From Acidobacteriota bacterium (GTDB lineage Bacteria > Acidobacteriota > Vicinamibacteria > Vicinamibacterales > UBA8438), in the NCBI GenBank assembly GCA_009861545.1, contig VXME01000083.1, positions 1 to 51,891 of the forward strand: 51,891 nt of DNA, in the 5' to 3' direction. Each line of letters begins with the position of its first letter. Position 1 is the first letter of the stretch. This document shows positions 5,671-25,113 of the stretch, one piece after another. A model generated the notes under the pieces. That model did not search any database. It was not told where the DNA came from and worked only from the letters and a program-made list of their open reading frames with translations. Made by a program: the position numbers and the translations under genes.

Positions 5671-7056
5671 TCACGGCGCGTCGTTGGTGATGCGGTAGAG
5701 CCTCGACTGCGTTCGCAGGATGAGGCTGCCGTGCGCGATGGCCGGCGTCGCCAGCGCCATCTCGTCGAGGTCGTTCGTGCCCACTATCGAGAATTCCGAA
5801 CCGGCCTCCATCACATAGGTGATCCCGTCCTCGCTCAGGGCGAAGATCTTCCCGTTGTAGGCCCACGGAGACGCGGTGAAGCCGTGGCCGGGAGCGATTC
5901 GTCGGCGGCCGTAGATCTCCTCTCCCGTGCGGGCGTCGTGACACAGCAGAAAGCCGCGGTCGAGCAGCGTGTAGTAGTAGTCGCCGTAGACCAGCGCCGA
6001 CGTGCTGTAGGTGCCGAGCAGCGGTTGGTACCACGCGATGTGGTCGTTGCTCGCTTCGCCCTCGGCCAGCGAGATGTCGCCCGACGCGCCCGGCCGGATG
6101 GCGTAGACCGGCCGCGGGAAACCGCCGGGATAGCCGGAGCTCAAATACAGCAGGCCGTGGCCGGCGAACGGCGTCGGCACGACGTTGACGGTCATTCCGC
6201 CCAGCTCCCAGAGCTGGTTGCCGTCCAGGTCGTAGGAGCGGATCCTGCGGCGGCCGGTGGTCACGATCTCGGTCCGCACCTCGTTCTCCCAGACGAAGGG
6301 CGTCGACCAGTTCTCCGTCTCGTCCCGGTCGATGCGCCACACCTGCTCGCCGGTGGCGGTGTCGAAGGCGGCCAGAAACGACCGGGTGGTGTTGTCGTTG
6401 ACGATGTACAGGCGCCCGTCGTGCAGCACCGGCGAAGCCGCGCTGCCGAACTCCTGCCCGCCGTTGAAGGCGCCGACCTCGGCGGTCCAGACCGTCTCGC
6501 CGCTCAGGTTGAGCGCGGCGACGAGCCCGACGGCGCCGAAGTAGACGTACACCCGCCGCCCGTCGGTGACCGGCGTCTCCGAGGCGAAGCTGTTCTTGAT
6601 GTGCTTCAGCTCGGGCGGCGCCAGGGTGTCCAGCTCGCGCGCCCAGCGGATGCGGCCGGTGGCGAAGGAGACGTCGTACACCATCCAGCGATGCTCGGCC
6701 GTCGACCGCTGCTTGCCGAACTCGTCGCCCGGGTCGTACAGCCCCGGCACCGGCTGCAGCTCCTCGCCCGCGCTGATCGCCGCCGTCACGAAGACATGGT
6801 CGCCCGCCACTACCGGCGAGCTCCAGCCCAGGCCGGGAACCTCGACCGACCAGGCGACGTTCTCCGTCCTGCTCCAGGTGTCCGGCAGGGCCGGATCGTC
6901 GGCCACCGCCCCGGCGTTGAGGCCCCGAAACTGCGGCCACTCCGCCGGCGCCTGGGCCAGGACCGGCGGCCCCGTCCCGAGCACCACGAACCCCGCCGCG
7001 CCGAAAGCCACGAACGCGGCAAGCAGCCCCGCGCGCCTCCACTGTCTCATCGTCAT
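5671..7056 (-). CDS. Secreted PQQ-like beta-propeller protein
   Basis: 461-aa protein with an N-terminal signal peptide (basic start, hydrophobic core about residues 9-27, cleavage near VLAQA). The mature part has repeated beta-propeller blades of the PQQ-dehydrogenase type: WPQFRG near the N-terminus, SSPVVAGDHVFV, ASETPVTDGRRVYVYF, LHDGRLYIVND, ENWSTPFVWENEV and FTASPWAYNGKIFALSEDG. It lacks the cytochrome or catalytic parts of true quinoprotein dehydrogenases, so it is probably a periplasmic scaffold or binding propeller. It is closely similar along its length to the protein at 18328-19698, and the two bracket the block of exported genes. It is divergent from the gene at 7309. Either of two nearby ATGs (7056 or 7050) may be the start. 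Confidence 0.85.
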   Translation of the reverse strand: MTMRQWRRAGLLAAFVAFGAAGFVVLGTGPPVLAQAPAEWPQFRGLNAGAVADDPALPDTWSRTENVAWSVEVPGLGWSSPVVAGDHVFVTAAISAGEELQPVPGLYDPGDEFGKQRSTAEHRWMVYDVSFATGRIRWARELDTLAPPELKHIKNSFASETPVTDGRRVYVYFGAVGLVAALNLSGETVWTAEVGAFNGGQEFGSAASPVLHDGRLYIVNDNTTRSFLAAFDTATGEQVWRIDRDETENWSTPFVWENEVRTEIVTTGRRRIRSYDLDGNQLWELGGMTVNVVPTPFAGHGLLYLSSGYPGGFPRPVYAIRPGASGDISLAEGEASNDHIAWYQPLLGTYSTSALVYGDYYYTLLDRGFLLCHDARTGEEIYGRRRIAPGHGFTASPWAYNGKIFALSEDGITYVMEAGSEFSIVGTNDLDEMALATPAIAHGSLILRTQSRLYRITNDAP

Positions 7057-7308: not shown

Positions 7309-8325
7309 GTGACCAGACGCAGTCTTCACCTGGCGGTCGTGCTCTTCGCCGGCCTGGCGCTCCTGGCCGGCACGGCGGCGGCGCAGGACGACTCCTGGAC
7401 GGCGCCGCGAACCGCCTTCGGCCACCCTGACCTGCAGGGGGTCTGGGCCAACAACAACGCCACGCCGCTCCAGCGGCCGGAAGTGCTGGGCGACCGCGAG
7501 TTCCTCACCGAAGAGGAAGTCGCCGCGCTGCAATCCCACGCCGAAGAGCTCTTCGCCCTCGACGGGGGCGACGCCGCCTTCGGCGACAGCGTCTTCACGG
7601 CGGCGCTGAACGCGGTGCAGAACTTCAGCTCGCGCGACACCGCCACCGGGAACTACAACCAGTTCTGGATGGTCGAGCGCGACTGGGACAACCGCACTTC
7701 CCTCGTCGTCGATCCGCCCAACGGCCGGCTGCCCGCGCGCACCGCGGCGGCCACGATGCGGGCCGAGACGGCCAGCATGAAGCGGCAGCGCCACGCCATC
7801 TGGACCGACGACCGCAGCCTCGGCGAGCGCTGCGTCAGCTTCGGCGCGCCGCGGCTCGGCGCGGGCTACAACAGCTATTACCAGCTCTTTCAGACGCCCG
7901 ACCACGTGGTCATCCTGATGGAGATGGCCCACGACGCGCGGATCATCCCGCTCGACGGGCGGCCCCATCTCGATGACGGCGTCCGGCAGTGGCTCGGCGA
8001 CTCGCGCGGCTACTGGGACGGCGACACCCTGGTGGTGGAGACGAAGAACTACTCGCCGTTCGCCAACTTCATGGGGGCGGCCGAGCACCTGCACATCACC
8101 GAGCGCTTCACGCGCGTGAGCGACGACGTGCTGCAGTACGAGATCACGGCCAACGACGCGACGACGTGGGAGCGGCCTTGGACGGCGATGATTCCGCTGC
8201 GCAGCAGTCCCGACGCGCTCTACGAGTACGCCTGCCACGAGGGCAACATCGGCATGGAGGGCATCCTCGCCGGCGCGCGGCACCAGGAGGCCCAGGAGGC
8301 GGAGGCCGCGGCCGCCAGCCGCTGA
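7309..8325 (+). CDS. Secreted paralogous family protein, copy 1
   Basis: 338 aa, GTG start with GGGAGG 6 nt upstream. A signal peptide (hydrophobic about residues 7-22, AAAQ cleavage) precedes a domain shared by four genes in this window. Family hallmarks are HPDLQGVWANN and PLQRP near the N-terminus, YNQFWM, TSLVVDPPNGRLP, a DGRPH segment, the block QWLGDSRGYWDGDTLVVET, ERFTRV, PWTAMIPL and the C-terminal YEYACHEGN then AGAR. The conserved Cys, His, Glu and Asp residues suggest an extracytoplasmic enzyme or ligand-binding protein, but I know no function for the family. It is followed by a strong terminator. Neighbouring copy 2 is in tandem. Confidence 0.8.
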   Translation: MTRRSLHLAVVLFAGLALLAGTAAAQDDSWTAPRTAFGHPDLQGVWANNNATPLQRPEVLGDREFLTEEEVAALQSHAEELFALDGGDAAFGDSVFTAALNAVQNFSSRDTATGNYNQFWMVERDWDNRTSLVVDPPNGRLPARTAAATMRAETASMKRQRHAIWTDDRSLGERCVSFGAPRLGAGYNSYYQLFQTPDHVVILMEMAHDARIIPLDGRPHLDDGVRQWLGDSRGYWDGDTLVVETKNYSPFANFMGAAEHLHITERFTRVSDDVLQYEITANDATTWERPWTAMIPLRSSPDALYEYACHEGNIGMEGILAGARHQEAQEAEAAAASR

Positions 8326-8351
8326 TCCGCTGACGAACCGGCGTCTTCCGC

Positions 8352-8395
8352 ACGGCCGCCTTCCGATCCTGCATCGGAGGGCGGCCGTTTTCTTT
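8352..8395 (+). terminator. Strong intrinsic terminator after copy 1
   Basis: A 16-bp stem (8352-8367 with 8373-8388, one wobble) and a 5-base loop are followed by TTTTCTTT. It lies 27 bases after the stop of the gene at 7309, so the second paralogue at 8501 must have its own promoter. Confidence 0.9.
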
Positions 8396-8500
8396 GCCAA
8401 GCCCTCGGGGACGGGCTGTCGGCGGCCAGGCGCGTTCGTCACGCGGCGCGGATTCCCGCCCGGTCGCATGCTATCCTGACCGATTATCAGGAGGTGGATC

Positions 8501-9505
8501 ATGGGCACGCACGACCCGCGTCGACCCCGGACACTGCTGCTCGCGACGGTCTGCGCGGCGCTCGTCGCCGGCGCCATCGCCGTCACCCACGCGCAGTCCA
8601 CGGGCAGCGCCTACACGGCGCCCCGCACGGCCTGGGGAGCGCCCGATATCCAGGGCATCTGGACCAACGCCACGCTGACCCCGATCGAGCGCCCGGCGTC
8701 GATGTCCGACCAGGACGTGCTCACGGCGGAGGAAGCCGCGGCGTTCGAGACGTCGTCGGCCGAGGCGCGCGCCGCATCCGACCGCTTCATTCCGGGCAAC
8801 GTCGGCGCCTACAACCAGTTCTGGATGGACGGCGGCAAGGTAGTGACCGGCGACCGCCGGACGTCGCTCATCACCGATCCGCCCGACGGGCGCATCCCGT
8901 GGACCGAGGCGGGGCGCGAGCGCCTCGCCGCGGACTCCGCCAAGTACGGCGTCGGCCCGTTCGATTCCTGGATCGACGCCGACACCGGCGAGCGCTGCCT
9001 CACCGACGGCCTGCCGTTCGTTCCGCTGCAGGGCTACAACATGAACTACCACATTCTGCAGTCCGAGGGCTGGGTGGCCATGCTGAACGAGATGTTCCAC
9101 GAGTTCCGGCTGATCCCGACCGACGGACGGTCGCACATCCCGGTGCACGTCGGACAGTGGCTCGGCGACGCACGCGGCCGGTGGGAGGGCGACACCCTCG
9201 TGGTCGAGACGACCGCCTTCGCCGACCGGAGCGCCGACCTGTGGCGGGCGACCTGGCGCGGCGCGCGTCCCGGCCTGCACCTGGTCGAGCGGTTCACGCG
9301 CGTGGACGAGCAGACGCTGGACTACGAGTTCACGATGACCGACCCCGACATGTTCACGCGGCCCTGGACGGCGCTGCTGCCCATGACCACCGACCACGAG
9401 TCGCGCGGGGTCACGTCCGGTCCCATGTACGAGTACGCCTGCCACGAAGGCAACTACGGTCTGCTGAACATCATGCGCGGCGCGCGCGCGGAGGACGCGC
9501 AGTAG
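8501..9505 (+). CDS. Secreted paralogous family protein, copy 2
   Basis: 334 aa, ATG start with AGGAGGT 5 nt upstream. Signal peptide (hydrophobic about residues 10-27, cleavage after HAQS region), then the same family pattern as copy 1: APDIQGIWTN, IERPA, YNQFWMDGG, TSLITDPPDGRIP, GERCLTDG, QWLGDARGRWEGDTLVVET, ERFTRVDEQ, RPWTALLP and YEYACHEGN. It differs from copy 1 through most of the middle, so the duplication is old. It is separately transcribed from copy 1, judging by the terminator between them, and may continue into the gene at 9657. Confidence 0.8.
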   Translation: MGTHDPRRPRTLLLATVCAALVAGAIAVTHAQSTGSAYTAPRTAWGAPDIQGIWTNATLTPIERPASMSDQDVLTAEEAAAFETSSAEARAASDRFIPGNVGAYNQFWMDGGKVVTGDRRTSLITDPPDGRIPWTEAGRERLAADSAKYGVGPFDSWIDADTGERCLTDGLPFVPLQGYNMNYHILQSEGWVAMLNEMFHEFRLIPTDGRSHIPVHVGQWLGDARGRWEGDTLVVETTAFADRSADLWRATWRGARPGLHLVERFTRVDEQTLDYEFTMTDPDMFTRPWTALLPMTTDHESRGVTSGPMYEYACHEGNYGLLNIMRGARAEDAQ

Positions 9506-9656
9506 TCGCTCGAGAGCGTCCGGTCGGGCATGGGCGCGACGGAGAACGCCGTTGCCGACGAAGGTGTGAACGTCGTCATCTCCGGCTCCAGGCCTGTCGG
9601 ACCGCAAGGATGCGCTCCGCCGTAAAGACGTTTTCTGCCCCCGCCGGGAGGATGCC

Positions 9657-10886
9657 ATGTGTTCGCTCAGGTTCCGCCGACGCCTCGCCGCCGTCAGTCT
9701 CGTCGTGATCGGAGCTCTGCTCTGGCAGGGCGCGGAGCGTGCCGCAGCGCAGGTGCGCCCCGACGCCCCCGGCAGTACCCCGGTGGTACGCCTCGACGAG
9801 CCGCGCATTCCGCCGCTTCCGGAAGCCGAATGGACGGCCGAGCAGCGTGCGCTCGTCGAGAAGTACGCCTCCGAGGTACGCATCGGCAACGCCTTCCGGA
9901 CCATGCTGCGCGTGCCCGAGCTGGTCGAAGCGGTGATGCCGTTCGTCCTCTTCACGTCGATCGACTCGACCCTGTCGGCCCGGCACCGGGCGCTGCTGAT
10001 CCTGCGGACGGCCTGGCTGACCCGGTCGAGCTACCTCTGGGCCGACCACGTGCCGACCGCCCGGGCGGCGGGCGTCATGCCGGGCGAAATCCGGCGCGTC
10101 GCCGAGGGGCCCGGCGCAACGGGGTGGGACCCGTTCGAGGCCACGCTGCTGCGGCTCGCCGACGAGCTGTACGTCAACTCGTCGGTGCGCGACGCCACCT
10201 GGGACGCGCTGGCCGCCCGCTACGACCTCTACAACCTGTTCGACGCGGTGATGGCGGTCAACGAGACGACGCTGGTCGCGATGCTCTACAACTCGTGGGG
10301 CGTGCAGCCGGACGACAACGCTTATGCGCGCTTCCCCGCCGACGTGCCGTACGCCCTCGACGTGCCGGCCCCGGAGCCGCCGCTCACCACGCCTCGCGTT
10401 GCCCCGCTCGAAGGGGAAGGCATCCGGGTGCGCCGGACGATGGGGCGCTACCCCGAGCTGCAGGCCGCGCGCAGCGGGCAGTCCGGCTACGTGAACCGGA
10501 TCTCGCCGCTCACGCCCTACTTTCGCGAGCTGCTGATCCTGCGCATCGGCTGGAACTGCCAGGCCGTCTACGAGTGGGCCAAGCACGTCGGCAGCGTGGG
10601 CCGAGCGCGCGACCACGGGCTGGAGCCGGAGCGGATCGCGCTCGGCGCCGGCGCCGGCTGGGACGAGTTCGAAGCGGCGCACGTGCGCGCGGCGGACGAG
10701 ATCTACCGGGACGGCATCGTCTCGCAGGAGACGTGGGACACCCTGGCCGAGCGCTACGACACGCGCGAGATGATGAGCGTCGTGATGACGGTGGCCAACT
10801 ACCGCCTCGTCTCGATGTCGCTCAACGCGCTCGGCGTGCAGCCGCAGGAGACGGACGAACTGTTTCCCGACGTAGAGCTGCCCTGA
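9657..10886 (+). CDS. Exported protein with two carboxymuconolactone decarboxylase-like domains
   Basis: 409 aa, ATG start with GGGAGG 5 nt upstream. A signal peptide (about residues 10-31, AAAQ) precedes two repeats of the AhpD/carboxymuconolactone-decarboxylase fold. The first (about 45-225) reads RTAWLTRSSYLWADHVPTA and the second (about 255-400) WNCQAVYEWAKHVGSVG, the usual helix with Tyr-x-Trp-x-x-His. The CxxC pair of AhpD peroxidase-reductants is absent in both, so a lyase, hydrolase-like or non-redox role is more likely. The export signal is unusual for this mostly cytosolic family. The duplication mimics an obligate dimer in one chain. Confidence 0.75.
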   Translation: MCSLRFRRRLAAVSLVVIGALLWQGAERAAAQVRPDAPGSTPVVRLDEPRIPPLPEAEWTAEQRALVEKYASEVRIGNAFRTMLRVPELVEAVMPFVLFTSIDSTLSARHRALLILRTAWLTRSSYLWADHVPTARAAGVMPGEIRRVAEGPGATGWDPFEATLLRLADELYVNSSVRDATWDALAARYDLYNLFDAVMAVNETTLVAMLYNSWGVQPDDNAYARFPADVPYALDVPAPEPPLTTPRVAPLEGEGIRVRRTMGRYPELQAARSGQSGYVNRISPLTPYFRELLILRIGWNCQAVYEWAKHVGSVGRARDHGLEPERIALGAGAGWDEFEAAHVRAADEIYRDGIVSQETWDTLAERYDTREMMSVVMTVANYRLVSMSLNALGVQPQETDELFPDVELP

Positions 10887-10999
10887 CCTGGAACCTGGCA
10901 GGCCGGGCTCGCATGCCGTGCAGCAGCCGCGGGCCGGGTCCGGCCAGGCCTCGACGGGACACCGGCGATGCGCACGCCGGCGCCACGATGTGGCGGTGA

Positions 11000-12496
11000 C
11001 TACCGGCCGTGCCACGCGGCGCGGCGCGGCCAGCGCGGCCCGTCCTCGAAGAACCGGACGCCGCTGCCGATCCGGTCGTAGTCGCCGAGCTCCGCGCGGG
11101 CCTCGTCGGCGAGCGCGCTCAGCCGCTCGACGACCTCCGGATGCCGCGCCGCCACGTCGACCTGCTCGCCGATGTCGGTCTCCAGGTTGTACAGGGCCAA
11201 TTCGGCGACCGGCTCCAGCAGCTCGCCGCGGAACGCGCCGCCGCGCGAGAGCAGCCACTCGGACTCGTCGCGCCCGGGACGCGGGAACACCAGCTTCCAG
11301 GGACCGCTGCGGACGGCATCCAGGCGGGTCTCCCGGTAGTAGTAGAACGCCTCGTGGGGGCTGACCGCACCCGGCTCGCCGCGCATCAGCGCCGAGATGT
11401 CCCGCCCGTCGATGAGGCGGTCGGCAGGCAGGTCCGCCCCGGCCAGCGCGATGAACGTCGGCAACAGGTCCATGTTGGTGGCGATCGCGTCCGTCTCCGT
11501 GCCGGCAGGAACGTGACCCGGCCCCCACATCACCGTCGGCACGCGGATGCCGCCCTCCCAGGTCGTCCCCTTGGCGCCGCGCAGCGGCCCGGACGATCCC
11601 GAGTGCTCCGTGATCGCGGCGGTGTAGCGCGGCAGTGAGTGGTTGCTCCAGGGTCCGTTGTCCGAGGTGTAGACGACGATGGTGTTGTGGTCGATCTCCA
11701 GCTCCCGCAGCAGATCGAGAATCTCCCCGGTGCTGGCGTCCAGCTCCTCGATGACATCGCCGTAGAGACCGCGGGCGGACCCGCCCCGAAACCGCTCGCC
11801 GGCGCCGAGAACCACGTGCGGCATGGTGTGGGCGACGTACAGGAAGAACGGCCGGTCCGCGTGGCGCCGGATGAAGGAGAGCGCCTCGTCCGTGTAGCGC
11901 CGCGTGAGATCGTCGAGCCCGGCCGACTCCTCGATACGCTCCTCGTTGCGGTGCACCCAGTGCACCTCGCCGCTGTCGTTGGCGCCGACCACCCCGAACC
12001 ACTCGTCGAAGCCGCGGCGTACGGGGCTCAACTCCGGGCGCCAGCCCCGGCGCCGCTGCGTGATGTCGACCTTCCCGACCATGCCGGTCGCGTAGCCGGC
12101 CGCCTGCAGCACCGAGGGCAGCAGGATCTCCCGCTCGTGCACGTAGGGAAAGCTCCGCTTTTCGTTGCCGTACTCGCCGACCCGGATCGGATAGCTGCCC
12201 GTCAGCAGCGCCGTGCGCGACGGCCCGCACAGCACCTGGGCGTAGAAGCTGGTGAAGCGCATGCCCTCGCCCGCCATGCGATCGATGCGCGGCGTCTCGA
12301 AGTCGGTCGCGCCGAACACGCCGAGATCGCCGTAACCCTGGTCGTCGGCGAAAACGATGATGAAGTTCGGCCGCTGCGGCTGCCCGGGCACTCTCGCCGT
12401 TGCCGGCGAACCGGCGACCATGGGCGCCGCAGAACCCGAGACGCCCGCCAGCGCCCCAGCCAACAGCACGAGAAACGCGCTCACTCTCAGCTTCAT
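11000..12496 (-). CDS. Arylsulfatase-like secreted sulfatase
   Basis: 498-aa sulfatase-family hydrolase. The open frame extends upstream, but the ATG at 12496 is chosen because GGAGAAGG precedes it and a signal peptide (hydrophobic about residues 6-24) follows directly. Metal-binding Asp51-Asp52 are in FADDQGYGD. The formylglycine signature CGPSR is at 90-94, so Cys90 should be converted by a formylglycine-generating enzyme, none of which lies in this window. A second metal site appears as SDNGPW. Late motifs NMDLLPTF and YNLETD are typical of arylsulfatase A-type proteins. It probably desulfates sulfated carbohydrates outside the cytoplasm. It is divergent from the gene at 12791. Confidence 0.9.
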   Translation of the reverse strand: MKLRVSAFLVLLAGALAGVSGSAAPMVAGSPATARVPGQPQRPNFIIVFADDQGYGDLGVFGATDFETPRIDRMAGEGMRFTSFYAQVLCGPSRTALLTGSYPIRVGEYGNEKRSFPYVHEREILLPSVLQAAGYATGMVGKVDITQRRRGWRPELSPVRRGFDEWFGVVGANDSGEVHWVHRNEERIEESAGLDDLTRRYTDEALSFIRRHADRPFFLYVAHTMPHVVLGAGERFRGGSARGLYGDVIEELDASTGEILDLLRELEIDHNTIVVYTSDNGPWSNHSLPRYTAAITEHSGSSGPLRGAKGTTWEGGIRVPTVMWGPGHVPAGTETDAIATNMDLLPTFIALAGADLPADRLIDGRDISALMRGEPGAVSPHEAFYYYRETRLDAVRSGPWKLVFPRPGRDESEWLLSRGGAFRGELLEPVAELALYNLETDIGEQVDVAARHPEVVERLSALADEARAELGDYDRIGSGVRFFEDGPRWPRRAAWHGR

Positions 12497-12593
12497 CGTG
12501 TCGTCACCTTCTCCCGTCTGCCTGCCGTCGGGCCCTGATGATCGGTCGGAAGCCGCCTGACTATCGCAGGGCAAGTCACGTACACTGTAGTGC

Positions 12594-12779
12594 ATGCTTC
12601 GGCCAGAGCCGCGTGACGATGACGCGGTGCGCGAGGCCCGGCGGCAATCATTGCTCGTCAGCCGCCGCGACTCCGAACGCGAGACGCTCGACTTCATCGA
12701 GCAGGCGATCGAAGATGGCCCGAAGCCCTCGACAACACGCTCCGTTGCTTGCTATCGCTCGACGGACCACGACGGGTAA
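12594..12779 (+). pseudogene. Possible MazE-like (DUF3018) antitoxin fragment
   Basis: A 61-codon frame whose central part (AVREARRQSLLVSRRDSE, then ETLDFIEQAIEDG) resembles the C-terminal half of DUF3018 MazE-like antitoxins. The usual N-terminal RPVQIWVPD segment is reduced to RPEPRDDD, there is no Shine-Dalgarno, and no MazF partner follows. It lies in the 294-base gap between the divergent sulfatase and SMP-30 genes. Best read as a degraded antitoxin remnant; chance similarity is possible. Confidence 0.35.
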
Positions 12780-12790
12780 GGATTTCCGCC

Positions 12791-13894
12791 ATGCACACTG
12801 ACACCACTCGCCACCCATCGAACTCTCCCGCACACCGTTCGCCCCGCCGGCCGCTCAGCCGGCGAGCGTTTCTCGGAGCCACGGTCGCGTCCACCACGAT
12901 TGCGCCGGCGCTGGCCGCCGCGCAGCAGGCAAGCCTGCCGCCGTACGAGCCGCGCGACTGGTCGGGACAGAATCCGCTGCACTATCCGGACCCGGACATC
13001 ATCGCGCTCGATCCGCGGTTCCGGCCCTACATCCTCTTCAACACGCCGATCCGCCGGCACTACATCGGCACGCTGTGGGCGGAGGGCCCGGCGTGGAACG
13101 GCAGCGGCCGCTACCTGGTCTGGAGCGACATTCCGAACAACCGCCAGTTGCGCTGGCTGGAGGAGGACGGCCACGTCAGCGTCTTCCGCAGCCCGTCCGG
13201 CCACAGCAACGGCAACACGTTCGATCACGAGGGACGGCAGATCTCCTGCGAGCACGGGAACCGGCGCGTGGCGCGTTACGAGCATTCCGGCGAGGTGACG
13301 GTCATCGCGGACCGCTACGAGGGCAGGCCCCTCAACTCGCCGAACGACGTGGTGGTCCATCCCGACCGCAGCATCTGGTTCACCGACCCGCCGTACGGCA
13401 TTCGGGGCAGCTACGAGGGCTTTCCCGCCGAGCAGGAGCAGCCGCTGTCGGTCTACCGCGTCGACGGCGCTACCGGCGCGATCACCCGCGTCACCGACGA
13501 GATCGGCGCGCCGAACGGACTCTGCTTCTCGCCCGACTACGACCGGCTCTACGTCGCCGACACCGGCAGCGGGCAGGAGGTGAAGGTCTGGGACGTCGAC
13601 GGCGAGACGCTGGTGAACGGCCGCACCCTCGTGCAACTCTCGGTGCCGGGCGATCCCGACGCGCGGTCGGTAGCCGACGGCATGCGCTGCGACGCGGACG
13701 GCAACGTCTGGGCCGGCGCCGTGCCGGGAGTGCAGGTCATCGCGCCGGACGGAGACGTCATCGGCATCATCCGCCTCCCGGAGCGGTGCGCCAACGTCTG
13801 CTTCGGCGGGACCCGGCGCAACCGGCTGTTCATGACCGCGAGCCAGTCGCTCTACTCGGTCTACGTCGGGGTGCGGGGCGCCGGCATCGCCTGA
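12791..13894 (+). CDS. Tat-exported SMP-30/gluconolactonase-like protein
   Basis: 367 aa from the ATG at 12791 (AAGGA 8 nt upstream). The N-terminus carries a twin-arginine signal (LSRRAFLGATVAS), so the folded protein is exported by Tat. The mature part is an SMP-30/gluconolactonase six-bladed propeller: TLWAEGPAWNGSGRYLVWSD with the metal-ligand Glu, GNTFDHEGR, LNSPNDVVVHPD with the Asn-Asp pair, WFTDPPYG, APNGLCFSPD, LYVADTG and VADGMRCDADGNVWAG. These match lactonases that open sugar lactones. The stop is 7 bases from the stop of the convergent gene at 13902. Confidence 0.85.
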   Translation: MHTDTTRHPSNSPAHRSPRRPLSRRAFLGATVASTTIAPALAAAQQASLPPYEPRDWSGQNPLHYPDPDIIALDPRFRPYILFNTPIRRHYIGTLWAEGPAWNGSGRYLVWSDIPNNRQLRWLEEDGHVSVFRSPSGHSNGNTFDHEGRQISCEHGNRRVARYEHSGEVTVIADRYEGRPLNSPNDVVVHPDRSIWFTDPPYGIRGSYEGFPAEQEQPLSVYRVDGATGAITRVTDEIGAPNGLCFSPDYDRLYVADTGSGQEVKVWDVDGETLVNGRTLVQLSVPGDPDARSVADGMRCDADGNVWAGAVPGVQVIAPDGDVIGIIRLPERCANVCFGGTRRNRLFMTASQSLYSVYVGVRGAGIA

Positions 13895-13901
13895 CCCGAG
13901 C

Positions 13902-15350
13902 TTACGCGCGCAGGTCGTAGCACAACAGGCGCGGGCCCGCGCCCGTGAGCAGGTCCCGCGCGTTCTGCGTCACGTAGAGCAGGCCGCGCGACAGCACGGG
14001 CAGGCTCCACGACTCGCGGGCCGCGAACAGCCAGCCGCGCGAGATCTCCGTGTAGCCGTCGGGCGTCAGGTCCAGCCACAGCAGGTGCCCCAGCTCGCCC
14101 AGGGCCAGGAACTGCCCGTCCGCGGCGAGCAGCGACCCGCGCGCGGTGCCCAGGATCTGCTCGTACTCGCGCCCGTCGATGGTGAACCTCTCGCGCCACT
14201 GCGGAACCTCTCGCCAGGCCACCTCCCCCGTCGCGGCATCGATGCAGGCGAGGGAGGAATCGCCCATGTTGCGCCCGTCGAACCCGTAGAGGTAGCCGTC
14301 GCGATGAATGGGCGTGTTGAAGTGCAGCGCGAAATCCCGTGTGGTCCATGCCACGTCATGCGTGAAATCGGGCCGCACCTCGACGAGGGCCCCGCCGGCG
14401 CGGTAGCTCGCGGTGATGAACACCTTGTCGTCGAAAACGACCGGGCAGGCGGCGTTGACCGACTCGTACGTGCGACTGCGCCACGGGAAGGCGAAGTCCA
14501 CGCGCCCGTTGGTCGGGTCGATGGACATGAGCCCGCCGGACGGGGGCCGCGACTCCCCGCCGGCGAACACGAACACCCTGCGCTCGCCGTGCACGACGGC
14601 CGGCACCGGCGAGGCGTAGCTCGCACCCCATTCGTCGCCCGCCCGCCAGACCTCGTCGCCGGTCTCCAGGTCGAGCGCCGCGACGGTCGGTCCACCCGGT
14701 GCGCCGACGTTGACTATCAGCACGCCGCCCTCGATGAGCGGCGTCGAGCTGATGCCGAAGAAGTCCTGCCGCACGCTGTAGGCGCTGCGCAGATCGGACC
14801 GCCAGACGACGCGGCCGGTCTCCAGCTCCATCGCGTGGACCCGCCCCTCGGCGCCGATTGTGTAGACCCGGCCGCCGGGAACGTCGATGACAGGACTCGA
14901 GCGGGGGCCGTTGTTGTACCCGTAGCGGTCGCGGTACGCCGACGGATACCGCAGCCGCCAATGGGTGCCCCCGGTCTCGGGATGCAGGCACTCGACGATC
15001 TCTTCTTCGCCGACCCGGTGGAGATAGACGAGGCGGTCGCCGTGGATCGCCGGCGAGGCGTAGCCGGACCCGGTAGGCAACTCCCAGACCAGCGGCGGCG
15101 GCAGGGTCCGGCTGAGCCGCGTCTCGGTCGACTCGCCGTTGTGGGTCGGCCCGAGAAAGGACGTCCAGTCGTGGGTGACGGCGTCCGCCGCGAGTGGCCG
15201 CGGGGCGCCGTGCACCAACGCACGGCCGGCCCCGGCCTGAACCCCCGCCGCCTGCTGCGAACCCGGCGCCAACCGACTCGCGGCGACGGGCGGCGCGAGA
15301 ACAGGCGCGGCCAGCGCCGCGATCGCCGAGCGCCGCGACATCAGTCGCAT
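13902..15350 (-). CDS. Exported PQQ-like beta-propeller protein
   Basis: 482 aa from the ATG at 15350, preferred over upstream starts because GAGGA lies 8 nt before it. The N-terminus (MRLMSRRSAIAALAAP) has an SRR followed by a hydrophobic stretch, which could be Tat or Sec. Propeller repeats include ASPAIHGDRLVYLH, SSPVIDVPGGRVYTIG, ALDLETGDEVWRAG, ASPVPAVVHGERRVFVF and LLAADGQFLALGELG. It is clearly more distant from the propellers at 5671 and 18328 than those are from each other. No haem-binding CxxCH is present, so it is not a quinohaemoprotein. Role unknown. Confidence 0.8.
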   Translation of the reverse strand: MRLMSRRSAIAALAAPVLAPPVAASRLAPGSQQAAGVQAGAGRALVHGAPRPLAADAVTHDWTSFLGPTHNGESTETRLSRTLPPPLVWELPTGSGYASPAIHGDRLVYLHRVGEEEIVECLHPETGGTHWRLRYPSAYRDRYGYNNGPRSSPVIDVPGGRVYTIGAEGRVHAMELETGRVVWRSDLRSAYSVRQDFFGISSTPLIEGGVLIVNVGAPGGPTVAALDLETGDEVWRAGDEWGASYASPVPAVVHGERRVFVFAGGESRPPSGGLMSIDPTNGRVDFAFPWRSRTYESVNAACPVVFDDKVFITASYRAGGALVEVRPDFTHDVAWTTRDFALHFNTPIHRDGYLYGFDGRNMGDSSLACIDAATGEVAWREVPQWRERFTIDGREYEQILGTARGSLLAADGQFLALGELGHLLWLDLTPDGYTEISRGWLFAARESWSLPVLSRGLLYVTQNARDLLTGAGPRLLCYDLRA

Positions 15351-15432
15351 GCGTTGAATCCTCGCAAGGAAATGCGCCGCACGTCCCAGGTCCTGCATCG
15401 TCTGCGGCACAGCTTTCCGCGGCGCAAACTCC

Positions 15433-15891
15433 TCAATGGGGGCGATACGAGAGGACCAGGAACGCGCCGGCCGCGGCCATCAGGATACCCAGGAAGAACA
15501 CCGGCGACGGGCTCTCCTGCGGCGGATTGTAGAGCATCGCGACGAACACGCTCACGACCGGCGCCCCGGCGAAGACCAACGGGGGCACCACGTTCGGGCG
15601 GCCGCCGTTGACCAGGGCCAGGACGATGCCGAGCGCGCCCACCGCGCCCAGTACGCCGGCGGCGAACGTGAACAGCATGCCGTTCGGGTTGTCGCCGAAC
15701 AGATTCCACGTGCCGGCGCGGGCGATCATCATCCCCGGCACGGCGATCGCGACGACCAGATAGGCCGCCCCGACCATCAGGAAGGCATGTACCCCGCTGC
15801 TGCCGAGGGCCTGCTGTCCGCGATGCAGCGTCGGGATGTAGGTCCCCCAGCTCAGCACCGTCATCACGACGAAGGGCAACCACGTACGCAT
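15433..15891 (-). CDS. Small DMT/EamA-like integral membrane protein
   Basis: 152 aa from the ATG at 15891, preceded by GGAAGGAAG. Four to five hydrophobic helices are visible: LPFVVMTVLSWGTYIPT, AFLMVGAAYLVVAIAVPGMMI, GMLFTFAAGVLGAVGALGIVLALV, PPLVFAGAPVVSVFVAML and VFFLGILMAAAGAFLVLSY. The arrangement resembles half of a drug/metabolite (EamA) transporter. It follows a terminator, so it is transcribed separately from the paralogue at 16017. Confidence 0.7.
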   Translation of the reverse strand: MRTWLPFVVMTVLSWGTYIPTLHRGQQALGSSGVHAFLMVGAAYLVVAIAVPGMMIARAGTWNLFGDNPNGMLFTFAAGVLGAVGALGIVLALVNGGRPNVVPPLVFAGAPVVSVFVAMLYNPPQESPSPVFFLGILMAAAGAFLVLSYRPH

Positions 15892-15927
15892 GGATCGTCT
15901 TCCTTCCGAAAGAAACGAGAAACACAT

Positions 15928-15962
15928 AAGAAAGGCCCGCCCCAGTGCACTGAGACGGGCCC
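15928..15962 (-). terminator. Intrinsic terminator of copy 3
   Basis: Read on the minus strand, GGCCCG...CGGGCC closes a stem of about 12 bp (15934-15962, with G-T wobbles) around a CAGTG/CACTG core, followed by TTTCTT (15928-15933). It lies about 55 bases past the stop at 16017. Confidence 0.85.
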
Positions 15963-16016
15963 GTGAGAGTCGCGTGTCGAGACCGGCGCACTGCACCGGT
16001 CAGTCGGTGTCCTGCA

Positions 16017-17018
16017 TCAACGGACCGACGTCACGGCCTGCGTGTCCTTGCGCCGCGCGCCGGCCATGATACCGGCCATCCCGATGTTGCCCTCGTGGCA
16101 GGCGTACTCGAAGAGCGGGCCGTCGGTCCGCCGCAACGGCATCATCGCCGTCCACGGCCGGATGAAGTTGTTCGGGTCCTCGACGGTGAACTCGTACATC
16201 ACGGTGTCGGGATCCATGCGCCGGAAGCGCTCGATCACGGAGGTGTCCGCCGACGAGCCGCCCAGGCTGGTCTCCCGCAGGAAGTTCTTCGTCTCGACGA
16301 CGAGGGTCTCCCCTTCCCACCGCCCACGCGAGTCGCCCGACCACTGCGGGAGCTCGCCGTGCGGCCGGCCGTCGATGGGAATGATGCGCGCGTTGTGCAC
16401 CATCTCGTTCAGGATCACGACGTAGCCGGGCACCTGGAAGATCTGCACGTTGTTGTTGTAGGCGCTCGAGACCATCGGCGGTCCGGCATTGAAGCCCATG
16501 ATGCAGCGGTCCGCGAGGCTGCGATCCGTGTAGTGGTCCGCGAACCCGTTGCGCAGGTTGAGCCGGCGGATCTGCGCCGCCTCCTGGTACTCCGGCTTGA
16601 ACGGGATGCGCCCGTTCGGCGGGTCGACGACGAGCGACGTCCGCTTGTCGGCGGTCAGCTCGATGCCGCGCTCGTACCAGAACTCGTTGTAGGAGAGCAC
16701 CCCGCCCTCGGCCCGCGACTGGTAGCCCGCGTTCGGGGCGCCGGTCTCCGGATCGAACAGGTCGCGGTTCAGCCGGATCCGTTCGGAGGCCTCGAACTGG
16801 GCCGCCTCCTCGGCGCCGAGCCGGTCCTGGCCCTCGAGCGCCGCGGGGCGCTGGAGCGGGGTCAGGGTCCGGAAGGTGAAGATGCCGGAGATGTCCGGCT
16901 GGCCGTCCGGCGTCCGCATCACGGTCTCCGACTCGGCCGACTGGGCGTTTGCGGGAATCGCCGCCGCTACCGTCGCGGCGAGCGCCATTGCGACGACCAT
17001 CACGAATCGCTGACTCAT
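16017..17018 (-). CDS. Secreted paralogous family protein, copy 3
   Basis: 333 aa from the ATG at 17018 (GGAGG 7 nt upstream). A longer open frame continues leftward of the start on this strand but is shadow coding. Signal peptide to about residue 26 (ANAQS). Family pattern: MRTPDGQPDISGIFTF, PLQRPAAL, YNEFWYERG, TSLVVDPPNGRIP, DRCIMGFNAGPP, VILNEMVHNARIIPIDGRPH, QWSGDSRGRWEGETLVVET, ERFRRMD, RPWTAMMPL and YACHEGNIGM. Much closer to copy 4 than to copies 1 and 2, so copies 3 and 4 come from a later tandem duplication. Confidence 0.82.
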   Translation of the reverse strand: MSQRFVMVVAMALAATVAAAIPANAQSAESETVMRTPDGQPDISGIFTFRTLTPLQRPAALEGQDRLGAEEAAQFEASERIRLNRDLFDPETGAPNAGYQSRAEGGVLSYNEFWYERGIELTADKRTSLVVDPPNGRIPFKPEYQEAAQIRRLNLRNGFADHYTDRSLADRCIMGFNAGPPMVSSAYNNNVQIFQVPGYVVILNEMVHNARIIPIDGRPHGELPQWSGDSRGRWEGETLVVETKNFLRETSLGGSSADTSVIERFRRMDPDTVMYEFTVEDPNNFIRPWTAMMPLRRTDGPLFEYACHEGNIGMAGIMAGARRKDTQAVTSVR

Positions 17019-17146
17019 CTGGAATCCTCCATGCGCTGCAACGGAAACATGGATCCTACCTTGGAATCGCCACCTGTTCAACGGCGTGCCGCGCCTGACG
17101 CGGAGATCCGACGCGGACGATCTCGCGCCCGACCCCGTACAGGGAA

Positions 17147-17180
17147 GCGGCCCGTAGCGGGAAGCCCCGCAACGGGCCGC
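17147..17180 (-). terminator. Terminator-like hairpin between copies 3 and 4
   Basis: A 9-bp perfect stem GCGGCCCGT (17147-17155) with ACGGGCCGC (17172-17180) contains a second GCGGG/CCCGC stem. It lies about 40 bases after the stop of the gene at 17219 (minus strand). The following T-run is weak, so it may slow rather than stop transcription. Confidence 0.6.
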
Positions 17181-17218
17181 ATGCGTCGTGCGAATTCCGG
17201 TCCGACCCGCGTTCCCGA

Positions 17219-18217
17219 TCAGCGGTCGGCGTCGACGCGCTGCGTGTCCTTGCGACGCGCGCCGGCCATGATGCCCTCCATGCCGATGTTGCCCTCGTGG
17301 CAGGCGTACTCGAAGAGCGGGCCGTCGGTGCGACGCAGCGGCATCAACGCAGTCCACGGACCGGTGAGGTTGTTCGGATCCTCGACCGTGAACTCGTACA
17401 CCACGGTGTCGGGATCCACGCGGCGGAAGCGCTCGATGACGTGCGTGTCCTTCGACGAGCCGCGCAGGCTGGTCTCGGTGATGAAGTTGTAGGTCTCGAC
17501 GACGAACGTCTCACCCTCCCACCGGCCGCGCGACTCGCCCGACCACTGCCGCAGGCCGTGGCGCGGCGCCTCGGCGTCTATCGGGATGATCCGCGGGTTG
17601 TGCACCATCTCGTTGTAGATGACCACGTAGCCCGGGATCTGCATGATCTGCACGTTGTTGTTGTACGAGCCCGCGGTCATCGGCGGCCCGGCGTTGAAGC
17701 CCATGATGCAGCGGTCGGACAAGCTGCGGTCGGTGTAGTGGTCCGCGAAGCCGTTGCGCAGGTTGAGACGGCGGATGCGTCGCGCCTCCCGGGCCTCACC
17801 GGTATACGGGATGCGGCCGTCCGGCGGATCGACGATGAGCGCCGTGCGCTTGTCGGCGGTCAGCTCGATGCCCCGCTCGTACCAGAACTCGTTGTACGAC
17901 AGCACCCCGCCCTCGGCCCGCGACTGGTAGCCGGCGCTCGGCGCGCCGGTCTCCGGGTCGAACAGGTCGCGGTTCAGCCGGATGCGCTCGGAGGCCTCGA
18001 ACTGCGCGGCCTCCTCGAGGCTCAGGCGCTCGCGCCCTTCCAGGGCCGCCGGCCGCTCCAGGGGCGTCAGCGTGCGGAAGGTGAAGATGCCGGAGATGTG
18101 CGGCTGCCCGTCGGGGGTCCGCATGACTTCGTCGCTCGACTGCGCCCCGAGCGGCAGCGGGGCCAGCAGCGCAACCGCGGCCAGCGCCAACAACGCCGTC
18201 AATGCACGATGATTCAT
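17219..18217 (-). CDS. Secreted paralogous family protein, copy 4
   Basis: 332 aa with a Sec signal peptide (hydrophobic about residues 8-24, cleavage near LGAQS). It is near-identical to copy 3 in long stretches: MRTPDGQPHISGIFTF, GYQSRAEGGVLSYNEFWYE, GIELTADKRTALIVDPP, LRNGFADHYTDRSLSDRC, QIMQIPGYVVIYNEMVHN, GRWEGETFVVETYNF, PWTALMPLRRTDGPLFEYA. The downstream order propeller (18328), copy 4, copy 3 on one strand mirrors propeller (5671), copy 1, copy 2, suggesting repeated co-duplication or functional pairing of the propeller with this family. Confidence 0.82.
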   Translation of the reverse strand: MNHRALTALLALAAVALLAPLPLGAQSSDEVMRTPDGQPHISGIFTFRTLTPLERPAALEGRERLSLEEAAQFEASERIRLNRDLFDPETGAPSAGYQSRAEGGVLSYNEFWYERGIELTADKRTALIVDPPDGRIPYTGEAREARRIRRLNLRNGFADHYTDRSLSDRCIMGFNAGPPMTAGSYNNNVQIMQIPGYVVIYNEMVHNPRIIPIDAEAPRHGLRQWSGESRGRWEGETFVVETYNFITETSLRGSSKDTHVIERFRRVDPDTVVYEFTVEDPNNLTGPWTALMPLRRTDGPLFEYACHEGNIGMEGIMAGARRKDTQRVDADR

Positions 18218-18327: not shown

Positions 18328-19698
18328 CTAGTCGCCCGCATCCGAAGCGATGCGGTACAGCGTCGACGCGGTCCGTAGGAAGAGGCTGCCCCGCGCGATG
18401 GCCGGGGTCGCCATCGTCATCTCGTCGCCGAGCGAGTTGCGCCAGAGCACCTCGAACTCATCGCCCGCCTGCATGACGAAGGTCTCGCCGTCCTCGCTCA
18501 GCGCGAAGATCTTGCCGTTGTAGGCCCAGGGCGACGCCGTGAAGAGCGTTCCCGCGGTGACCCGCCGGCGCGGATAGACGGGCTGCCCGGTGCGGGCGTC
18601 GTAGCACATCAGGATGCCGCGATCGAGCAGCGTGTAGTGGTAGTCGCCGTAGACGAGCGACGACGGGTTGTAGGAGCCGAGCTGCGGGTGCGACCAGACG
18701 ACGTAGTCGTTGCTGGTGCTCCCCTGCCCCAGCGAGATGTCGCCGCTCGCACCGGCCCGAACGGCGTAGACCGGCCGGTGGCTGTCGGCGATGTAGCCGG
18801 AGTTGATGAACAGCAGGCCATGGTCGGAGAACGGCGTCGGGATGACGAGCGACGACATGCCGTGCAGCTCCCACAGCAGCTCGCCGTCGAGGCTGTAGGA
18901 GCGGACGCCGCCGGTGCCGGTCGTCACGAGCTCGGTGCGGACGTCGTTCTCCCAGACGAAAGGCGTCGACCAGTTGGTCCCCTCGTCGCGGTCGGTCCGC
19001 CAGATCTGCGCGCCGGTGGCCGCGTCGAAGGCCGCGACCCACGACTGCTCGTCGTTGTCGTTGACCACGTAGAGACGGCCGTCGTGCAGGATGGGCGATC
19101 CGGCCGCGCCCCAGTTGCGCCGCGGCAGCCACTCCAGCGGCACCGACCACGCCTCGTTGCCCTCGAAGTCGAACGCGAAGAGGCCGATGTCGCCCAGGTA
19201 GACGTAGACCCGCTCGCCGTCGGTGACCGGCGTCTCCGACGCGAACGTGTTCTTCTGGTGCGCGGTCAGCGTCGGCACCGCGGTGTGCAGATCGCGCTCC
19301 CAGCGGACCGCCCCGGTCTCGAAATCGACGTCGTAGAGCACCCAGCGCAGCGGCTCGCCCTCCCGGTCGATGTCGGCCCCGGTCATCGATCCGCCGAGGG
19401 ACCGGGCCCGGTAGGACTCGATCGGCAGCGGCTGCGCGTCCGTCGTGCCGCTCACGCGGGTGACGGTCAGCACGAAGACGTGATCGCCCCAGACTATCGG
19501 CGAGCTCCAGGCGCGGCCCGGGATATCGATCTGCCAGGCGATGTTCTCGTCCGGCCCCCAGCGGTCCGGCAGCGCCGGATCGTCGGCGACGACGCCCGCC
19601 ACCCCGCCCCGGAACTGCGGCCAGTTGGTCTGGGCCGAGACACCCGCCGCCATCGACGCCACCAGCGCCGCCATCACCGTCACTCGCGTCGTATTCAC
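18328..19698 (-). CDS. Secreted PQQ-like beta-propeller protein, close paralogue of 5671
   Basis: 456 aa from the GTG at 19698. An ATG 21 bases upstream is in frame, but AGGAGG sits 5 nt before this GTG. Signal peptide about residues 6-23 (VSAQT). Strong similarity along the full length to the protein at 5671-7056: WPQFRGGVAG.VADDPALPD, NTFASETPVTDGERVYVY, LHDGRLYVVNDND, TNWSTPFVWENDVRTE, GASGDISLGQG, FTASPWAYNGKIFALSEDG and ATPAIARGSLFLRT. A probable periplasmic propeller without cofactor motifs. The gene lies immediately downstream of copy 4 on the same strand (110-base gap). Confidence 0.85.
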   Translation of the reverse strand: MNTTRVTVMAALVASMAAGVSAQTNWPQFRGGVAGVVADDPALPDRWGPDENIAWQIDIPGRAWSSPIVWGDHVFVLTVTRVSGTTDAQPLPIESYRARSLGGSMTGADIDREGEPLRWVLYDVDFETGAVRWERDLHTAVPTLTAHQKNTFASETPVTDGERVYVYLGDIGLFAFDFEGNEAWSVPLEWLPRRNWGAAGSPILHDGRLYVVNDNDEQSWVAAFDAATGAQIWRTDRDEGTNWSTPFVWENDVRTELVTTGTGGVRSYSLDGELLWELHGMSSLVIPTPFSDHGLLFINSGYIADSHRPVYAVRAGASGDISLGQGSTSNDYVVWSHPQLGSYNPSSLVYGDYHYTLLDRGILMCYDARTGQPVYPRRRVTAGTLFTASPWAYNGKIFALSEDGETFVMQAGDEFEVLWRNSLGDEMTMATPAIARGSLFLRTASTLYRIASDAGD

Positions 19699-19805
19699 CG
19701 CAGCCTCCTGAAGGGTCATCGTTGTCGAGCCGGCTCATTCTACCGCGCCGGCACACTGGGGCGGCGGCACGCGCTGCCGCGCCGGCGCGCGTACACTGAT
19801 ACGCC

Positions 19806-24798: not shown

Positions 24799-25113
24799 TC
24801 ATGCTCCGAAGTCCTCCCGGAACCGGTCCATCTGGTGCATCCGCTCATGCAGAACGGTGACGATACCGATGTCTCCGTCGCTCAGCGTCTTCCAGTAGAC
24901 GAAGTGCTTCTCGTACCGGAAGACGTAGCCATCCACCCCGAACGCGGCCGGTACGGGACGTGATGGAACTCCGCCGCCAGCGATTCTCCCGAATGCCTCG
25001 AAGAGCCCCGTGATGTACGTGTCGGCGCGGGCCGCCCCCCATCGCTCCCGGGAATAGCGGTAGATCTCGTCGATGCGAAGCGCGGCCGCCTCCTGGACCC
25101 GGACCACCCTCAT
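24799..25113 (-). CDS. parE: ParE/RelE-family toxin
   Basis: 104 aa. RelE/ParE fold pattern: EAAALRIDEIYRYSRERWG near the N-terminus, then a middle G..V..FRYEKHFVYWKT and C-terminal IGIVTVLHERMHQMDR. These are typical of ParE proteins that poison gyrase. The start ATG overlaps the stop of the upstream antitoxin gene by 4 nt, the usual type II toxin-antitoxin coupling. Complete, so presumably functional. Confidence 0.82.
   Translation of the reverse strand: MRVVRVQEAAALRIDEIYRYSRERWGAARADTYITGLFEAFGRIAGGGVPSRPVPAAFGVDGYVFRYEKHFVYWKTLSDGDIGIVTVLHERMHQMDRFREDFGA

Follow-up and report, generated by a model that had tools for sequence, protein, structure and literature searches.

An exported protein family with a predicted calycin fold, reaching about a hundred copies per genome, and its possible role beside periplasmic quinoproteins

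In FABPs and lipocalins, which belong to the calycins, the first strand is recognizable by a GxW motif. Massive expansion of exported small-molecule binders into paralogues is known from the Bug/TctC substrate-binding proteins of Bordetella. XoxJ/MxaJ, accessories of lanthanide and calcium methanol dehydrogenases, have an SBP-type fold, unlike the barrel described below, and we know of no genome in which they reach about 100 copies. Very large PQQ-dehydrogenase repertoires are reported for ocean Acidobacteria and for Pseudomonadales UBA9145 in passages of PMC11996626 that also call a D-x-D motif diagnostic of lanthanide use. The sections of PMC3174227 available to us describe paralogues in Solibacter and do not contain the term “PQQ.” For the family reported here, a literature search returned no description by title or abstract start, an absence that carries little weight because the family is nameless.

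The window, i.e., the whole stretch of DNA analyzed, comprises 51,891 nt of contig VXME01000083.1 from the 6.35-Mb genome of an Acidobacteriota bacterium (GCA_009861545.1). It contains the following features:

5671..7056, minus strand: secreted beta-propeller of PQQ_2 type, from a set of eight close paralogues encoded by this genome (Pfam PF13360, 6e-19)
7309..8325, plus strand: copy 1, A type (GTG start at 7309 or 7339)
8352..8388, plus strand: terminator-like hairpin of 16 pairs followed by TTTCTTT, immediately 3' of copy 1
8501..9505, plus strand: copy 2, A type, beyond the hairpin
9657..10886, plus strand: two-stretch carboxymuconolactone-decarboxylase-like (CMD) protein on the strand of copy 2 (Pfam PF02627, 2.3e-12)
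13902..15410, minus strand: third PQQ_2 propeller
15433..15891, minus strand: 152-aa EamA-like membrane protein (Pfam PF00892, 1.8e-5, below the cut-off)
15933..15962, minus strand: terminator-like hairpin closely following copy 3
16017 to about 17018, minus strand: copy 3, A type
17219..18217, minus strand: copy 4, A type, source of the AlphaFold2 model
18328..19719, minus strand: propeller of PQQ_2 type, lying upstream of copies 4 and 3 and read in their direction (PF13360, 2.5e-20)

An earlier sequence-only reading had taken the four genes starting at 7309, 8501, 16017, and 17219 for a secreted family of unknown function, and this is borne out. With the copy 4 protein as query, the other three were matched at E values of 2.3e-176, 1.4e-67, and 1.2e-65, so that, judged by their sequences, the homology of these paralogues far exceeds chance. 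All four carry YACHEGN together with variants of G[DE][SA]RG.W[ED]G[DE]T[LF]VVET and DPP[ND]GR[IL]P. Genome-wide, the family occupies 96 places (including contig-end fragments on C19 and C123 and a divergent B-type gene at C1:25469, and excluding a C167 fragment), and the window thus holds 4 of about 96 copies. Scanned against Pfam and NCBIfam at a threshold of 0.01, none of 71 members matches a model, and the Pfam comparison that the reading had proposed brought up no known enzyme family; a sequence search of the PDB likewise gave no match. In annotated plasmid records in which the gene is called, its label is “hypothetical protein.” Gene calls were made with a purpose-built codon-bias caller rather than a published tool, and some are wrong (L085 is in the wrong frame, and some starts are shortened); a family gene call was obtained in 62 of 80 named loci, the other 18 presumably being caller failures.

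Members fall into two types, A and B. Eighteen columns are invariant in 71 A-type proteins despite identities to the reference of 36 to 48% for most members, and many of these columns are charged (R169, E203, R209, E262, R263, D280, E303, H307, and E308). The conserved polar set of the A type consists of the same residues with Q193 in place of R169. A Cys-His-Glu (CHE) site had been proposed as a possible active-site pocket; its Cys is indeed invariant across the family, whereas the His does not hold up, since a CHE-type motif with His307 is present in 170 of 181 A-type proteins and in 0 of 27 of the B type. Export is predicted: by a crude test, an N-terminal hydrophobic stretch is present in 82 of 94 members from the same genome and in 79 of 113 others. 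Some members are fused to Lactamase_B, double Glyoxalase, or Cytochrome_CBB3 domains, the fusion to a c-type cytochrome being found in a B-type protein; CxxCH occurs in 1 of 207 called members.

The AlphaFold2 model of copy 4 (pLDDT 84.1, pTM 0.81) has eight antiparallel strands at residues 188 to 296 plus a first strand at 43 to 46, in which G43 and W45 lie. The Gly is present in 89 and the Trp in 77 of 91 sequences from the same genome, and GIW or GVW was seen in the nine B-clade proteins examined. Structural comparison with VIA-align gave Z values of 10.2 to FABP5 (4azp; rmsd 3.0 over 111 residues), 10.2 to CRBP1 (5h9a; rmsd 2.7 over 115 residues), and 9.8 to the luciferase nanoKAZ (5b0u; rmsd 2.5 over 112 residues), and FABP-, CRBP-, and NanoLuc-type entries with Z values of 9.5 to 10.2 stand among the best 50 matches listed. 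These values are only moderately above the 7 to 8 that the tool gives as the usual top value when a model matches nothing clearly, and Foldseek alone returned nothing under an E value of 1e-3 (best, 2.6e-3). The fold is predicted to be an FABP/CRBP-like calycin barrel of about 130 residues, with a GxW first strand and a lid insertion of about 140 residues; the barrel and the GxW strand are seen in the model, and at the sequence level no known calycin family is matched. In the model, the conserved Cys170 and Cys306 probably form a disulfide.

Immediate neighbors of at least 90 aa were scanned, 117 of 123 in the same genome and 138 of 141 in other genomes (up to 900 aa, away from contig ends); in both sets, many adjoining genes encode enzymes. 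PQQ_2 proteins make up 11 of the 117, against 2.3 to 4.4 expected depending on the background count, and 9 of 113 when the window is left out (test run as 9/114); elsewhere they are 9 of 138, a raw count without a background. The proposed association with propellers therefore stands as an enrichment among adjoining genes (2.5 to 5 times the background), and it is only partial. Seen from the quinoproteins, 4 of 54 places have a family gene within 500 bp (0.6 expected) and 7 of 54 have one within 3 kb (2.7 expected); the majority of quinoproteins thus have no copy next to them. These 54 places score at least 121 bits with pieces merged; the C53 and C108 fragments (104 to 109 bits) were dropped and the weakest rows left unused. 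Among 38 weaker PQQ-like places, 1 lies within 500 bp (0.4 expected) and 5 within 3 kb (1.9 expected). Family genes are about twice as numerous as quinoprotein genes in the genome.

DUF1552/DUF1592 genes occur near several copies. DUF1552 is likewise expanded, and in a genome-wide count none of its 47 genes has a family copy within 1.5 kb and 3 have one within 3 kb (2.4 expected), so the occurrence of DUF1552 near copies is attributable to chance. Cytochrome_CBB3 proteins are encoded by 5 of 117 and 4 of 138 adjoining genes, and enrichment of cytochromes is not clear either in the same genome (CxxCH in 11 of 125 adjacent versus 13 of 249 distant genes) or elsewhere (8 of 156 versus 19 of 311). 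TonB receptors are absent from the 25 commonest adjacent-gene families in both sets scanned, and a TonB C-terminal domain was found in 2 of 138 adjoining genes in other genomes. Separately, a TonB receptor adjoins a DUF6152 gene and a B-type gene in Croceibacterium, and in Sphingobium one is separated from a B-type gene by about 3 kb.

Across 13 genomes, family and quinoprotein counts are correlated (rho 0.88; partial correlation given genome size, 0.86), while the control, sulfatase counts, gives a rho of 0.05 with the family. These genomes, all carriers of the family, were hand-picked from those behind the 80 named loci, and the correlation ignores kinship; family counts are matches (pieces) rather than genes, from at most the best 150 candidates per genome, and quinoprotein counts come from at most the best 101. 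In a survey of presence or absence in 149 Acidobacteriota genomes, a quinoprotein was found in 14 of 14 genomes with the family and in 19 of 135 without it, although some absences may be misses because scoring stopped at the best 14 and 8 candidates in each genome. The 19 genomes with a quinoprotein match and no family match seen indicate that quinoproteins can do without the family. Of 21 quinoproteins in fetched regions reaching up to 20 kb around a family gene, some of them not direct neighbors, 19 were covered at the relevant site, and 16 of these have D-x-D (the other three, N-x-D or G-x-D). Together with the counts, this suggests that the family expanded together with lanthanide-type alcohol-oxidizing quinoproteins.

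The most specific neighbor of the family is DUF6152 (PF19649). The genome has 11 such genes, each scoring over the cut-off; 8 of them are within 500 bp of a family copy, and none is in the window. A cassette of B-type, A-type, and DUF6152 genes also occurs in an alphaproteobacterium. A His-His pair lies near the presumed cleavage site, judged by eye, in 29 of 29 correctly read sequences (30 matches less one wrong-frame call); because alignment rows were trimmed to start at HH, the invariance of the two His in the alignment is by construction, and 29/29 is the unbiased count. DUF6152 was therefore considered as a candidate histidine-brace copper protein, a type in which two His and the amine of the N terminus hold the metal. 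A CopC- or LPMO-like fold, expected from the N-terminal His, was set aside, as the structural matches listed for the DUF6152 model are mostly of OB type, with PriB scoring highest (Z 9.6); the list is compatible with other folds as well. A literature search on DUF6152 found no paper.

Our favored reading, offered tentatively, is that these exported calycin-like proteins serve periplasmic oxidation by binding small organic molecules, which they may also convert. The proteins would take up a ligand in the barrel, in the periplasm or outside the cell, and probably also process it chemically, at a step upstream of, or together with, periplasmic oxidizing enzymes, above all lanthanide-type PQQ dehydrogenases. 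Each paralogue may be tuned to a different substrate, which would explain about 100 copies per genome. The nearest alternative is that the proteins are secreted enzymes with one shared reaction (e.g., a lyase, isomerase, or hydrolase inside the barrel) and carry no ligand, neighbors differing because substrates differ. This is possible: the invariant charged residues would be expected in an enzyme more than in a protein that only carries, and the enzymes encoded by adjoining genes, the fusions to glyoxalase-type and metallo-beta-lactamase domains, and the presence of an enzyme, the NanoLuc-type luciferase, among the structural matches point the same way. However, His307 is absent from the B type and so cannot be central to a reaction shared by the whole family, and the Pfam and NCBIfam searches matched no known enzyme family.

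More improbable is a role as accessories to the quinoproteins, serving electron transfer or handling a metal (lanthanide, heme, or copper) in a way comparable to XoxJ/XoxG, with DUF6152 as a metal-binding partner. It is consistent with a copy number that follows quinoproteins, most of them bearing the lanthanide motif, with the cytochrome fusion and the Cytochrome_CBB3 neighbors, and with the His-His pair near the expected mature N terminus of DUF6152. Against it, family genes outnumber quinoprotein genes and are mostly not adjacent to them, CxxCH is nearly absent from members, and cytochrome-type neighbors are not clearly enriched.

The earlier proposal that a propeller and two copies form one functional unit, duplicated as a block, is very improbable: propellers 56% identical by BLASTP do flank two copy pairs, and the right-side order propeller-copy-copy-EamA-propeller recurs in another MAG contig, L077 (with an EamA-like homologue at the corresponding position and, after its two copies, a protein start resembling the propeller at 13902 to 15410), but the tree, the gene directions, and the hairpin that separates copy 1 from copy 2 contradict it, and of the eight such propellers only three, the window's two and a third on C162, have a family gene at a distance of 500 bp or less. 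In the tree, copies 3 and 4 are sisters (78% identity; support, 100/95), whereas the other two belong to different clades, in which copy 1 groups weakly (98/76) with copies from L059, L044, L061, and L049, and copy 2 is the sister of L043_15905 (59%). On the left, propeller and copies are divergently oriented; on the right, they are co-directional. The hairpin at 15933 to 15962 would mark the end of a propeller-copy-copy transcript; the region has 4 terminator-like sites against 4.2 expected from shuffles, so the hairpin at 8352 to 8388 is argued for by length and position only. The outer propellers are close paralogues, as had been claimed, but not an exclusive pair: the eight members are 52 to 60% identical to the one at 18328, and a C154 propeller is as near to it (60%) as its counterpart in the window. 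Both outer propellers exceed the PF13360 cut-off and match PF01011 partially (23.9 and 23.4 bits; cut-off, 26.7); the propeller at 13902 is only distantly similar to them.

Returning to the binding of small molecules by exported barrels, a wider proposal, which we consider rather unlikely, is that about 100 calycin barrels (A and B) and DUF6152, perhaps a small metal-binding protein with an OB-like fold and an N-terminal His-His pair, form an undescribed secreted oxidation system, the substrate side of the exceptionally large lanthanide-PQQ dehydrogenase repertoires in marine and soil Acidobacteriota and Gammaproteobacteria. Such a system would account for about 2 to 4% of genes in some genomes (with family matches set against gene totals estimated from genome size). 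The family amounts to roughly 100 to 150 matches in several genomes (at most the best 150 scored) without a Pfam or NCBIfam model. If the quinoprotein link is true, it would provide a testable handle on the substrates of very large PQQ-dehydrogenase repertoires and on a sizeable unexplained share of the secretome in uncultured bacteria.

Compared with FABP/CRBP and lipocalins, the family shares the up-and-down antiparallel barrel of the model, the GxW in its first strand, and Z values of about 10 to FABP5 and CRBP1. It differs in being bacterial, exported, and about 330 residues long, with a conserved predicted disulfide, no sequence match, and an insertion of about 140 residues after strand 1 where FABP/CRBP have a short helical lid. 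With Oplophorus luciferase/NanoLuc, it would have in common the calycin barrel predicted from the model, whereas the PDB sequence search gave no match and a luciferase reaction is not suggested. XoxJ/MxaJ would resemble the family as periplasmic or exported partners of quinoproteins. Bug/TctC proteins share its paralogous expansion and have an unrelated fold, a likeness by analogy only.

The four genes at 7309, 8501 (plus strand), 16017 and 17219 (minus strand), picked out in the sequence-only reading, are present and are clear homologues. In the source genome (Acidobacteriota; 6,353,869 bases, 174 contigs, with the window making up all of contig C83), 102 matches were obtained with one protein as query and 106 with a 71-row profile of the family. 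Once pieces are merged, the family is spread over 38 contigs at 96 places, which fall into 52 clusters and include 22 neighboring pairs separated by less than 600 bp, a scale invisible from one window. When 660 called proteins from fetched regions were clustered by single linkage, the family members fell into one group of 94. None of 71 members matched a Pfam or NCBIfam model at an E value of 0.01, and a PDB sequence search gave no match, which bears out the idea of a family without assigned function.

Relatives comprise at least 586 stretches, and those named among the best 80 belong to Acidobacteriota (Vicinamibacter-, Bryobacter-, Holophaga-, and Terriglobia-type MAGs), Gammaproteobacteria (Pseudohongiella and others), and Ponticaulis. 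A contig from a MAG record titled Klebsiella pneumoniae (L137) has two family genes; since the remaining relatives are Acidobacteriota and Pseudomonadota from the environment, this title is probably wrong for that contig. Among evenly drawn Acidobacteriota, the family exists in 14 of 149 genomes (9 of 101 genera), and a quinoprotein match (1e-20) was found in all 14 carriers versus 19 of the 135 others (Fisher 5e-11, uncorrected for kinship, with carriers in four families). In 13 hand-picked genomes, all carrying the family, family matches (pieces, not genes) and quinoprotein matches were, respectively, 104/34, 147/47, 103/41, 105/56, 120/29, 48/14, 153/36, 8/14, 50/16, 36/13, 23/10, 64/23, and 6/1. 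The two counts correlate with a rho of 0.88 (partial correlation 0.86 with genome size removed); with sulfatases, the control family, rho was 0.05. D-x-D is present in 16 of the 19 covered quinoproteins of fetched regions, and N/G-x-D in three. According to PMC11996626, D-x-D is diagnostic of lanthanide binding, and Ln-PQQ-DHs are unusually numerous, reaching 70 in one genome, in three genomes of Acidobacteria and fifteen of Pseudomonadales UBA9145; judging from phylum and order names, these would be the lineages of the family carriers.

Residues P39, C170, R209, G227, T237, E262, R263, D280, and C306 are invariant in all 91 source-genome sequences. In the Cys-His-Glu motif (C306, H307, E308), His is kept in 81/91 and Glu in 89/91. 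Because 61 of the 91 proteins have exactly two cysteines, which must be the invariant C170 and C306, sequence conservation makes a disulfide between them likely. In a tree of the 91 members, nine rows lacking the motif His form a clade (support 100/100; 259 to 323 aa, plus one fusion of 361 aa), here called B type; the window copies are of A type. Profiles for the two types were then used to score proteins, and the motif was found in 170/181 A proteins versus 0/27 B proteins. Three fusions occur in loci fetched from the source genome, each as a single open frame:

L043:4549-6315, family protein with metallo-beta-lactamase (PF00753, 4e-10)
L045:14083-15849, two glyoxalase stretches with family protein (PF00903, 7e-21)
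L043:18529-19611, cytochrome c with B-type protein (PF13442, 1.4e-12)

Among neighboring genes, DUF6152 (PF19649) shows the most specific association. The source genome has 11 DUF6152 genes, and for 8 of them a family gene is at most 500 bp away (0.15 expected, P 2e-13), one of these neighbors being a divergent B-type gene (E 1.4e-10 with the 71-row profile, 1.5e-16 in a second search). No family match was found in the 12 to 14 kb fetched around each of the other three, two of which adjoin a 215- to 220-aa protein (L157:6984-7628, without a Pfam match, and L158:5436-6095) with similar starts, EYASRADFF/EYASREDRF. No DUF6152 was found in the window. B genes lie within two genes of a DUF6152 more often than A genes (18/27 versus 33/181). 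The order B-A-DUF6152 recurs in Acidobacteriota (L043 and L045 of the source genome, and L078, L086, L088, L097, L098, L120, and L133), and in L075 and Ponticaulis (L156) it is accompanied by additional A copies; other orders are DUF6152-B-A (L035), A-B-DUF6152 (L042, L073), B-DUF6152 (L051, L140, L160), and B-DUF6152-A (L109). In Croceibacterium atlanticum, a TonB-dependent receptor is adjoined by two “DUF6152 family protein” genes and a B-matching “hypothetical protein.” All 29 correctly read DUF6152 proteins (including L078:8472-8828 and L035:7362-7706) show, by eye, His-His at the expected mature N terminus after the signal peptide, and 28 have an NPH motif (VPH in one). The AlphaFold2 model (pLDDT 85.5) resembles OB folds (PriB, Z 9.6). 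DUF6152 is a candidate exported metal-binding protein.

Two further gene sets recur near family genes. DUF1592 (PSD4), DUF1552, and ankyrin-repeat genes, whole or in part, occur in L031, L048, L049, L065, and L112; for the 47 DUF1552 genes of the source genome, proximity to the family is not above chance. A protein of about 266 to 295 aa adjoins a cytochrome/Cu-monooxygenase-like protein in L052 (13720-14538), L065 (10873-11712, no Pfam match), L064, and L130.

In the source genome, scoring 150 out of 295 candidates gave at least 197 PQQ_2 matches, and 54 places pass the analysis cutoff for a quinoprotein dehydrogenase. Of 117 adjacent nonfamily genes, 11 match PQQ_2 and 9 match PQQ (the sets can overlap); 2.3 to 4.4 PQQ_2 neighbors are expected, assuming 110 to 197 such genes genome-wide (P 2e-5 to 5e-3, or 6e-4 to 0.024 with the window left out). 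In other genomes, PQQ matches account for 9/138 adjacent genes. Of the 54 quinoproteins, 4 have a family gene within 500 bp (0.62 expected, P 0.0035) and 7 have one within 3 kb (2.7 expected, P 0.017); for weaker PQQ-like places the numbers are 1/38 (0.4 expected, P 0.35) and 5/38 (1.9 expected, P 0.036). Only three of eight window-type propellers adjoin family genes, two being the window's own. Because adjacency is above chance yet confined to a minority, the proposed propeller association is real but partial. The window features concerned are as follows:

5671-7056, minus strand, left PQQ_2 propeller, divergent from its copies
8352-8388, terminator-like hairpin after copy 1 (7309)
13902-15410, minus strand, third propeller
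15962-15933, terminator-like hairpin after copy 3 (16017)
18328-19719, minus strand, right PQQ_2 propeller, co-directional with its copies

Since four terminator-like sites were found versus 4.2 expected in shuffles, only position and stem length argue for the two hairpins.

A duplicated propeller-copy-copy unit had also been suggested. Block duplication would pair copies across the two sides; in the tree, 16017 instead has 17219 as its sister (78% identity, support 100/95), next to L034_11499, while 8501 pairs with L043_15905 (59%) and 7309 groups weakly (98/76) with L059/L044/L061/L049, which contradicts it. The sequence-only reading was thus half right, on the secreted family and part of the propeller link. 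The right-hand order, propeller-copy-copy-EamA-like-propeller, recurs on a 3.7-kb contig (L077) from a different MAG, where the contig ends truncate both propellers and the family match has 76% identity, and so this block looks like a conserved unit. Midway between the four copies lies a sulfatase (11000-12697, PF00884, 9e-56) with a CGPSR stretch resembling the sulfatase formylglycine motif. An SMP-30/gluconolactonase-like protein (12749-13894, PF08450, 3e-50) with a twin-arginine-like start, SRRAFLG, adjoins the third propeller. Small genes at 24799-25358 and 51009-51335 resemble, by eye and on translation alone, toxin-antitoxin pairs or parts (ParE/ParD-like; MazF-like).

What deserves following is an unnamed calycin-like family of about 100 copies, which has DUF6152 as a partner and whose numbers follow those of lanthanide-type quinoproteins. 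We propose that its members may be calycin barrels exported to handle small organic molecules, which they may only bind or also convert, in periplasmic oxidation pathways with many lanthanide-type quinoproteins; different paralogues would perhaps act on different substrates. Invariance of the charged residues points to chemistry or to a head group common to the ligands. Loss of His307 in the B type argues against this residue as the center of a reaction common to the family.

The AlphaFold2 model of the 17219 protein (built with 71 rows; mean pLDDT 84.1, pTM 0.81) gave CRBP and FABP entries as top Foldseek matches (best E 2.6e-3, none below 1e-3). In VIA-align, 50 rows had Z scores of 9.5 to 10.2 (rmsd 2.4 to 5.8, mostly below 3.6; 105 to 122 residues), covering about positions 30 to 304 of the model. 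GxW in the first strand is a calycin hallmark, and the first predicted strand has G43 in 89/91 and W45 in 77/91 source-genome sequences. In the model, strand 1 is separated from the remaining strands by a long stretch that contains helices and parts of low confidence (about 81 to 110). While FABPs have a short helical lid, the family would, according to the model, have this long stretch in its place.
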